From positions 62,001 to 126,000 of the forward strand of contig LCPR01000005.1 in NCBI GenBank assembly GCA_001003725.1: a stretch of 64,000 nucleotides of DNA. Reading direction: 5' to 3'. This stretch comes from Candidatus Saccharibacteria bacterium GW2011_GWC2_48_9. Its GTDB lineage: Bacteria; Patescibacteriota; Saccharimonadia; Saccharimonadales; Saccharimonadaceae. This document shows positions 9,218-33,682 of the stretch, piece after piece. Position numbers and translations under genes: made by a program. Every line of letters starts with the position of its first letter. Positions within the stretch are counted from its first letter, which is position 1. Under the pieces are notes generated by a model. It was not told where the DNA came from. It worked only from the letters and a program-made list of their open reading frames with translations, and searched no databases.

Positions 9218-9283
9218 CACGCAGTAACATGTACTTGACCTGATATAGTTTTAATTATATAAAAAGTAAGCTATACTAAGGAG

Positions 9284-9898
9284 ATGATATCTCGCTACGC
9301 GCTCTACACTACAGCTGATTTAAGTAAACGTTTTGACATTCCAGATGGACTACCAAAAGGAATTAAACCTTCATATAACATAAGCCCAACCGTCAGTGCG
9401 CCAGTGGTGACTGCGACTGACGGCAAGCGCGCCGTGTCCTTAATGAAATGGGGGCTTGTAGCGAAGGGTGCGAAAGATACCAACTCGGTATTTCGCTACA
9501 AAACGTATAATATCTCATCTGAAAATATACTATCTCGACATAGCTGGGAGCGTGCAGTGCGCGAGAGTCGCTGTCTAGTGCCCGCTAATGGCTTTTATGA
9601 ACTCAATGGTAGCGGTAAAAAACTTGCTTATTATGTGCAGCCAGGTGATCAAGAACTTGTCGCATTTGCTGGTGTGCACAGTTCTTGGCAAGACCCAGAA
9701 GGCGTCACGCATGGAACGTTTTCAGTGATCACAATCGATGCAACATCTGAGATGCCTGAATTTAGTACGGTGACCGACACAAGCTCGCTATACGATATGC
9801 TTCGTCCGTGCCCAAGAGGCTTTTTAGCTTTACATGAAGTAGGCGCCGCTATACACTCGCCGAAGCCAGATACCCCGAATCTTATCGACAGTATTTAA
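9284..9898 (+). CDS. SRAP (YedK/HMCES)-family protein lacking canonical Cys2
   Basis: RCLVPANGFYEL, KWGLV and SPKPDTPNLI motifs; N-terminus MISRY instead of MCGRY. Confidence 0.8.
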   Translation: MISRYALYTTADLSKRFDIPDGLPKGIKPSYNISPTVSAPVVTATDGKRAVSLMKWGLVAKGAKDTNSVFRYKTYNISSENILSRHSWERAVRESRCLVPANGFYELNGSGKKLAYYVQPGDQELVAFAGVHSSWQDPEGVTHGTFSVITIDATSEMPEFSTVTDTSSLYDMLRPCPRGFLALHEVGAAIHSPKPDTPNLIDSI

Positions 9899-9958: not shown

Positions 9959-10690
9959 ATGCGGAATGCACGTGGCTTTACTATTGTCGAACTACTCATT
10001 GTTATCGTCGTGATAGGCATTCTTGCTGCCATCACTATTGTGGCTTTCAACGGTATTCAGGAGCGGGGGCGTATTGCGAGTGGAACTGCATTTGCTGCGC
10101 AGATAAAGCGACAAAACTTACAGGATGCCACTGGGTCGTGGGCATTCAACGAGTGCTCGGGTACGACACTCAATAACGCAGCTGAGGGCAGTACGACACC
10201 TGCTACGATGACGTCTGGCGTGACATGGTCTACGGATACGCCGTCCGGCTCTGGCTGCTCACTGGCTTTTAATGGTGCGGGCGGTACGAGGGTGTTGACG
10301 GATGCAAGGCTCAGTGCGACCTACTACATGAAAGCAGCGTGGATAAAAATGACGAGCTGTAGTACTGGCAATAATGTACTATCCATGCCTGCGACTGGTT
10401 CACCGGATTCTGCTATGTACGCGCCTGGGTGTCGGCTACAAGCCGGCCACAATGGCTCATACAGTGTCGCAATCATGAATGGGGCGCTTAGTGCGGGTAA
10501 ATGGTATCATGTTGCTGTTGAGTATGTTGATTCTTCGTTGAAATTGTATGTGGACGGAAAAGTTGTTGCAACTGCAAGCTCGGTGTCACCACCGACTGAT
10601 GCGACTGCTACGGGAGTAACTATCGGCTCGCATGGCAACGGCAATACTATGACCGGATTAATAGATGACCCGATTATCATAGCTCGGTAA
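9959..10690 (+). CDS. Type IV prepilin-like protein with C-terminal LamG/concanavalin-like domain
   Basis: GFTIVELLIVIVVIGILAAITIVAFNG; later WYHVAVEYVDSSLKLYVDGKVV...IGSHGNG..GLIDDPIII typical of LamG. Confidence 0.85.
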   Translation: MRNARGFTIVELLIVIVVIGILAAITIVAFNGIQERGRIASGTAFAAQIKRQNLQDATGSWAFNECSGTTLNNAAEGSTTPATMTSGVTWSTDTPSGSGCSLAFNGAGGTRVLTDARLSATYYMKAAWIKMTSCSTGNNVLSMPATGSPDSAMYAPGCRLQAGHNGSYSVAIMNGALSAGKWYHVAVEYVDSSLKLYVDGKVVATASSVSPPTDATATGVTIGSHGNGNTMTGLIDDPIIIAR

Positions 10691-10723
10691 ATAGCAATGA
10701 AATGCTTATGCTATACTGAAAAT

Positions 10724-11341
10724 ATGAAAAAAAGCTACGGGTTTACGATAGTCGAACTACTTATCGTTATTGTTGTGATTGGCATTCTTGCTGCCATCAC
10801 TATTGTGGCGTTTAACGGCGTACAAGAAAGAGCTCGTGCGACAACCGCATCGTCTGATATTGCGGGCGCAAATAAAGTTGTGAAGCTTGCCGAAGCGACT
10901 GCAGGAAGCCCTGTGACTACGCTGGCTGTGCTGCAAGAAAGTAGCAAAATTAATGCCACGAAAGGCTTGTACAAAGTCCTGACAGTATGTACCGCATCGC
11001 AAGGCTATGCGGTAGCTGCGGAACTCAATTCGGGTGATGTGTATTACTCTCGAAACGGAGCGCCAGCCGTCAAGGATAATAGTGTTAACGCGCTTGATCC
11101 GTGTCCAGGTTTTGGGTGGACGACGTCTACAAGGATTTACGCAGGCATGCCAACCACCTCTTGTGCAAATGAAAATGGTACGTGTACATTTAGCGGCGCC
11201 GCTACTGTGGCATATGGCTCTTTGGCTCAAGGAAGGTTTACTGCGATGAAAGATCAGACGAGTCCAGTAGCATGCACCAACCCGTATTTTGGAGATCCGG
11301 CGAGCGGGTTTGCAAAAGCATGCTACGTGATGTCTAATTAA
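10724..11341 (+). CDS. Type IV prepilin-like protein
   Basis: MKKSYGFTIVELLIVIVVIGILAAITIVAFNGVQERA. Confidence 0.85.
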   Translation: MKKSYGFTIVELLIVIVVIGILAAITIVAFNGVQERARATTASSDIAGANKVVKLAEATAGSPVTTLAVLQESSKINATKGLYKVLTVCTASQGYAVAAELNSGDVYYSRNGAPAVKDNSVNALDPCPGFGWTTSTRIYAGMPTTSCANENGTCTFSGAATVAYGSLAQGRFTAMKDQTSPVACTNPYFGDPASGFAKACYVMSN

Positions 11342-33657: not shown

Positions 33658-33682
33658 CGACTCAGTGTTATACTAAGAGTCT

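Follow-up and report, generated by a model that had tools for sequence, protein, structure and literature searches.

A clade of Saccharibacteria SRAP-family proteins without the crosslinking Cys2

Results

The 64,000-nucleotide stretch of Candidatus Saccharibacteria DNA analysed here, hereafter the window, carries a gene of the SRAP family (Table 1). The Pfam SRAP profile covers residues 1–158 of the encoded protein and scores 127.6 bits against a cut-off of 27.1; because of the accompanying E-value, the open reading frame is an SRAP gene and not a chance reading frame, in agreement with the original prediction of an SRAP/HMCES homolog. Human HMCES is among the PDB sequence matches of the protein. 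The genome, 98% complete, contains no other SRAP copy.

Table 1. Positions of the SRAP-family gene, its active-site residues and its start region in the window.
Feature	Position	Strand	Evidence or remark
Cys2-less SRAP-family protein, 204 residues	9284..9898	+	Pfam PF02586, E 6.5e-37
TATACT at −12 from ATG; predicted −10 element of a leaderless start	9272..9277	+	like element in 28/29 clade members
AAGGAG abutting ATG; probably a spacer between −10 box and start rather than a working Shine-Dalgarno	9278..9283	+	spacer varies in homologs
Ile2 codon, in place of catalytic Cys2	9287..9289	+	
Asn76, equivalent of YedK Asn75, kept	9509..9511	+	
Ser78; Arg in canonical SRAPs (NAR motif)	9515..9517	+	
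Glu106, equivalent of YedK Glu105, kept	9599..9601	+	
Junction of private 54-nt in-frame gap; RMPVIIKPEDEARWLDPA of L002 missing; His position just before is Ser	9767..9768	+	alignment with L002; lowest fold confidence here

Crosslinking SRAPs expose a Cys at position 2 after removal of Met1. The window protein starts with MISRYALY and has lost this Cys, as was first noted. It retains the Asn and the Glu of crosslinking SRAPs, and at the position of the active-site His (YedK His160) it has a Ser, which lies just before a gap. Ser also occupies this position in L002, the nearest relative (71% identical; Candidatus Saccharibacteria isolate RYN_401, JAUCSC010000001.1), which is otherwise full length. 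The C-terminal motif HSPKPDTPNLI is kept, as predicted, and aligns with HSPKADNPTLI of L002. We read the residue equivalences off the Cys2-bearing relatives L063 and L026, and the YedK residue numbers were assigned by motif. Methionine aminopeptidase normally leaves Met in place ahead of Ile or Phe, so Met1 is expected to be retained in the Ile2 branch of the window protein and a free amine at position 2 to be absent.

Is the missing Cys2 peculiar to this gene? A local error would lead one to expect MCGRY and IHxRMP in Saccharibacteria relatives. The nearest relatives, 71%, 60% and 57% identical to the window protein, likewise start with MISRY, a start common to L002, L042, L009 and L012, and L002 reads ISSRMP at the site of the canonical IHxRMP. 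Sampling covered Saccharibacteria and the phylum to which they belong, together with a few phage contigs. SRAP profile searches over overlapping genome samples (1,571 genome look-ups altogether, with fewer distinct genomes) found SRAPs in about 5–13% of genomes per sample. They yielded 29 Cys2-less SRAPs usable in a tree, with Ser (8), Thr (10, L034 and L035 among them), Ile (9), Pro (1) or Phe (1) at position 2. In a maximum-likelihood tree of 57 proteins all 29 form one clade (support 100/99, found in 100% of bootstrap trees), nested beside the Cys2-bearing L026 and L063, which amounts to one change on the tree. Members of this clade were seen solely in the Saccharibacteria family of the window, and within the order, class and phylum the SRAPs of other families keep Cys wherever the N-terminus is confidently readable. 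SRAPs on phage contigs also retain it, some with a start codon other than ATG, and in L067 a short extension precedes CGRY. A few fragments or very divergent matches (e.g. L086, L020 and L044) were left out as unjudgeable for a Cys near the start.

Because its nearest relatives also start with MISRY and all Cys2-less SRAPs form one clade, the absence of Cys2 from the window gene is, on this tree, an ancestral single loss and not local damage; the clade-level finding is well supported by the sequences compared. The original prediction had offered a non-catalytic paralog or a damaged gene. The crosslinking Cys is indeed absent, but lone damage does not fit a loss that is ancestral to a 29-member clade of single origin under purifying selection. 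Nor does the notion of a paralog apply widely: just two carrier genomes (G255 and G196) were seen with a Cys2 copy as well, 31–41% identical to the Cys2-less one, so in most carrier genomes the Cys2-less SRAP is not a spare paralog.

The gene has a patchy distribution (about 10% of genomes), and on the tree L014, which comes from the same genus as the window gene, is not its sister; this pattern fits transfer or repeated loss. A recent phage or plasmid origin was considered and rejected, as phage and plasmid records held no relative above 35% identity and PADLOC gave no match. Among the genomic contexts read by eye, no conserved neighbour or operon partner was seen around clade members.

Some SRAP copies in the samples are irregular. 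In the clade member L018 (G041:C1), SRAP matching ends after about residue 115 and the C-terminus is scrambled, probably marking a frameshifted or broken copy. In L044 (G190:C3), a transporter-like open reading frame that begins at the locus start continues, without a change of frame, into a Cys2-less SRAP of which only the C-terminal half is present; a fusion, decay of the copy or a join made in assembly would account for it. A genome of the same phylum (G627:C37; loci L084, L088 and L090) has two or more SRAP stretches broken by TAA and TGA codons, representing either decayed genes or another reading of stops.

The start region was the source of a further claim, namely that AAGGAG, which does lie directly 5′ of the ATG, would fit a deletion of the true start. 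Of the 29 clade members, 28 have a TATAAT-like box (at least 5/6 matches) beginning at −12 to −14; among 31 Cys2 proteins, 13 have one beginning at −12 or −13. Within the window, 12 of 62 open reading frames have TATA(A/C)T starting −14 to −12 from the candidate start, compared with 0–3 at twelve other offsets, which suggests that leaderless transcription is common in this genome. Open reading frames with such boxes include those near 33676, 13366, 10690 and 54630. From the consensus spacing, the SRAP transcript is predicted to start at or near the ATG; a second candidate promoter, TTGACC (9235–9240) with TATAAA (9258–9263), would possibly give a short leader. Under either promoter, the contact of AAGGAG with the ATG gives no support to a lost start, because the box lies at a fixed upstream distance in nearly all clade members. 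That Cys2 and the start codon were lost together, through a small local deletion or an assembly error at the start of the gene, is next to impossible in our estimation: AAGGAG abuts the ATG as such a loss would have it, but the MISRY start is shared with four relatives, the whole clade is without Cys2, and the spacing of the upstream box is conserved.

The clade shows signs of being maintained. The eight clade pairs for which dS could be estimated give dN/dS values of 0.03–0.12 by the Nei-Gojobori method, several of them rough because dS is high; the value for L037 and L038 (0.11) is sound, with an unsaturated dS of 0.33, and dS is saturated between the window gene and L002. Private changes on the window branch number 15, 10 and 37 at codon positions 1, 2 and 3 (third-position excess p 2e-5, for the whole branch, before and after the deletion described below taken together), a preference as strong as that of L002. 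Given the low dN/dS of the close pairs, the clade is under purifying selection.

Active-site residues have been lost unevenly. The basal group (L027–L029) has Ser2 together with Asn, Arg/Lys, Glu and His. The His is lost in 23 of the 27 members with a readable site, and the Arg two residues beyond it is kept in 25 of 27, being lost in L014 and, through the gap, in the window protein. Glu is absent from L009, L012, L014, L015 and L039 and replaced by Asp in L043, Asn is lost in many members, the Trp67 equivalent is absent from the clade, and the Arg of the NAR motif is lost in the window's branch. Read by parsimony, this suggests that Cys was lost first, then His, then Glu, the last repeatedly in several later lines. 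Position 2 is Ser or Thr in 18 of 29 members, nearly all of which keep Glu. We also considered covariation between residue 2 and Glu. Of the 19 Ser/Thr/Pro2 members, 18 keep Glu and one has Asp, compared with Glu in 5 of 10 Ile/Phe2 members (Fisher p 0.01, phylogeny ignored); with only three well-supported independent pairs, the association is not significant once relatedness is counted, and we rejected it.

The missing IHxRMP...WL segment corresponds, against L002, to a single clean in-frame gap of 54 nt (18 residues). It occurs in no other clade member and is private to the window copy. The gap deletes RMPVII...ARWL, a block that includes the conserved Arg and that forms a strand and a helix of the core in the L002 model. 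Because L002 has ISSRMP, the His had already gone before the gap arose, and on this alignment the missing His segment is the product of two events: an earlier replacement of His and a later private deletion. The reading of a damaged gene is thus possible for the 54-nt gap alone.

Predicted folds match only SRAP structures below E 0.001 in Foldseek, with TM scores of 0.59–0.72 for the window protein and 0.69–0.83 for L002. The L002 model (pLDDT 85) has TM scores of 0.79–0.81 against the DNA complexes of YedK and HMCES. Has the deletion then turned the window copy into a decaying gene within an otherwise functional clade? We regard this as possible, though more doubtful than not. Loss of a core strand and helix, the fall in agreement with SRAP structures from a TM of about 0.80 for L002 to about 0.65–0.72, the drop in model confidence around the gap (lowest at residues 156–166) and the existence of other damaged members (L018 and L044) all point that way. 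Against it, the gap leaves the reading frame intact, with no stop or frameshift after it, and the private changes of the window branch show a third-position preference as strong as that of L002. An assembly fault in the window's genome would explain why no other member shares the gap; we hold this to be quite improbable for so clean an in-frame gap, the ends of which show no obvious short repeat in the alignment with L002.

Discussion

Cys2 of SRAP proteins has been described as "absolutely conserved" (PMC3765255). In YedK its N-terminal amine attacks the abasic aldehyde, and ring closure by its thiol gives a stable thiazolidine; the steps are driven by Glu105, the most important residue, with a minor role for His160 in aiding ring opening (PMC9436759). 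Our search, which covered part of the literature, turned up no natural SRAP described as lacking Cys2.

With YedK of E. coli and human HMCES the clade shares the fold, as modelled for L002, and the family profile, as well as the kept Asn and Glu, Arg4 and the YN-x-x-P, WG, RC-x-x-P and GFYE motifs. It differs from them in lacking Cys2 and the Trp67 equivalent and in a replaced or deleted His, and the window copy additionally lacks the 18-residue core block. The nearest outgroup, L026 and L063, shares with the clade a VFKYKT loop two residues longer; unlike the clade, these Cys2-bearing Saccharibacteria SRAPs carry MCGRY and the complete set of Asn, Arg, Glu and His, and they are 37–39% identical to the window protein. 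The laboratory mutants C2A and C2S of YedK (PMC9436759; PDB 8d2m is C2A) likewise combine an SRAP fold with the absence of the Cys2 thiol. L027–L029 and L005, with Ser2 and intact Asn, Glu and His, are natural counterparts of C2S, whereas the window protein and its Ile2 relatives are expected to keep Met1 and are without His.

What could a maintained SRAP without Cys2 do? SRAPs without the thiol form no stable crosslink, and active-site mutants still bind DNA (PMC9436759). Because the thiol-less YedK mutants form no stable crosslink, a Cys2-less protein is not expected to form a stable adduct; the thiazolidine would be out of reach. The best explanation we can offer, with somewhat less than even confidence, is that the clade has been retained for a non-covalent binding of single-stranded or abasic DNA by which the lesion is shielded. 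On the sequence evidence, Cys2 was lost once, followed by the active-site His and, in some lines, by Glu and Asn, with the fold and most of the core kept. In the window's Ile2 branch, where Met1 presumably stays, the N-terminal amine chemistry of the family would be gone too, and the window copy, which has also lost the conserved Arg along with a strand of the core and a helix, may be either a stripped-down binder or newly inactivated. Several observations sit uneasily with this explanation. DNA binding may be changed or gone with loss of the Trp67 equivalent and, in the window's branch, of the NAR Arg; the prevalence of Ser/Thr2 with Glu mostly kept is more easily reconciled with retained N-terminal chemistry than with pure binding; and the distribution of the gene is patchy, with no conserved neighbour among the contexts read.

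Retained N-terminal chemistry could make the clade a natural abasic-site lyase. Met1 would be removed from members that have Ser2, Thr2 or Pro2, their free N-terminal amine and Glu would open the abasic sugar, and a Schiff base would lead to strand cutting; the Ile2 copy of the window would be a derived, inactive offshoot. Both C2A and C2S of YedK give Schiff bases that can be trapped, and abasic DNA is cut by C2A (PMC9436759); both the weight of Glu105 over His160 in YedK and the uncorrected association of Glu with residue 2 agree with such an activity. That association does not survive the correction for relatedness, however, His is absent from most members, and cleavage at abasic sites would be the reverse of the protective role of the SRAP family. 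We consider a lyase unlikely. Taking the two proposals together, a clade that gave up its crosslinking Cys naturally, was kept for another activity on abasic DNA (a Ser/Thr N-terminal lyase or a non-covalent shield), and lost Cys, His and Glu in a traceable order is an account that we put forward tentatively.

Cys2 has also been described as required for stable crosslinking, and the maintenance of a natural clade that lacks it suggests that the SRAP fold can have a crosslink-independent role. The natural series of variants (Ser2 with intact Asn, Glu and His; Thr2 and Ile2, both without His) could separate the steps of binding, ring opening, lyase activity and crosslinking.

Elsewhere in the window, two adjacent pilin-like genes at 9959–10690 and 10697–11341 have near-identical N-termini, the first with a laminin-G/concanavalin-like domain.
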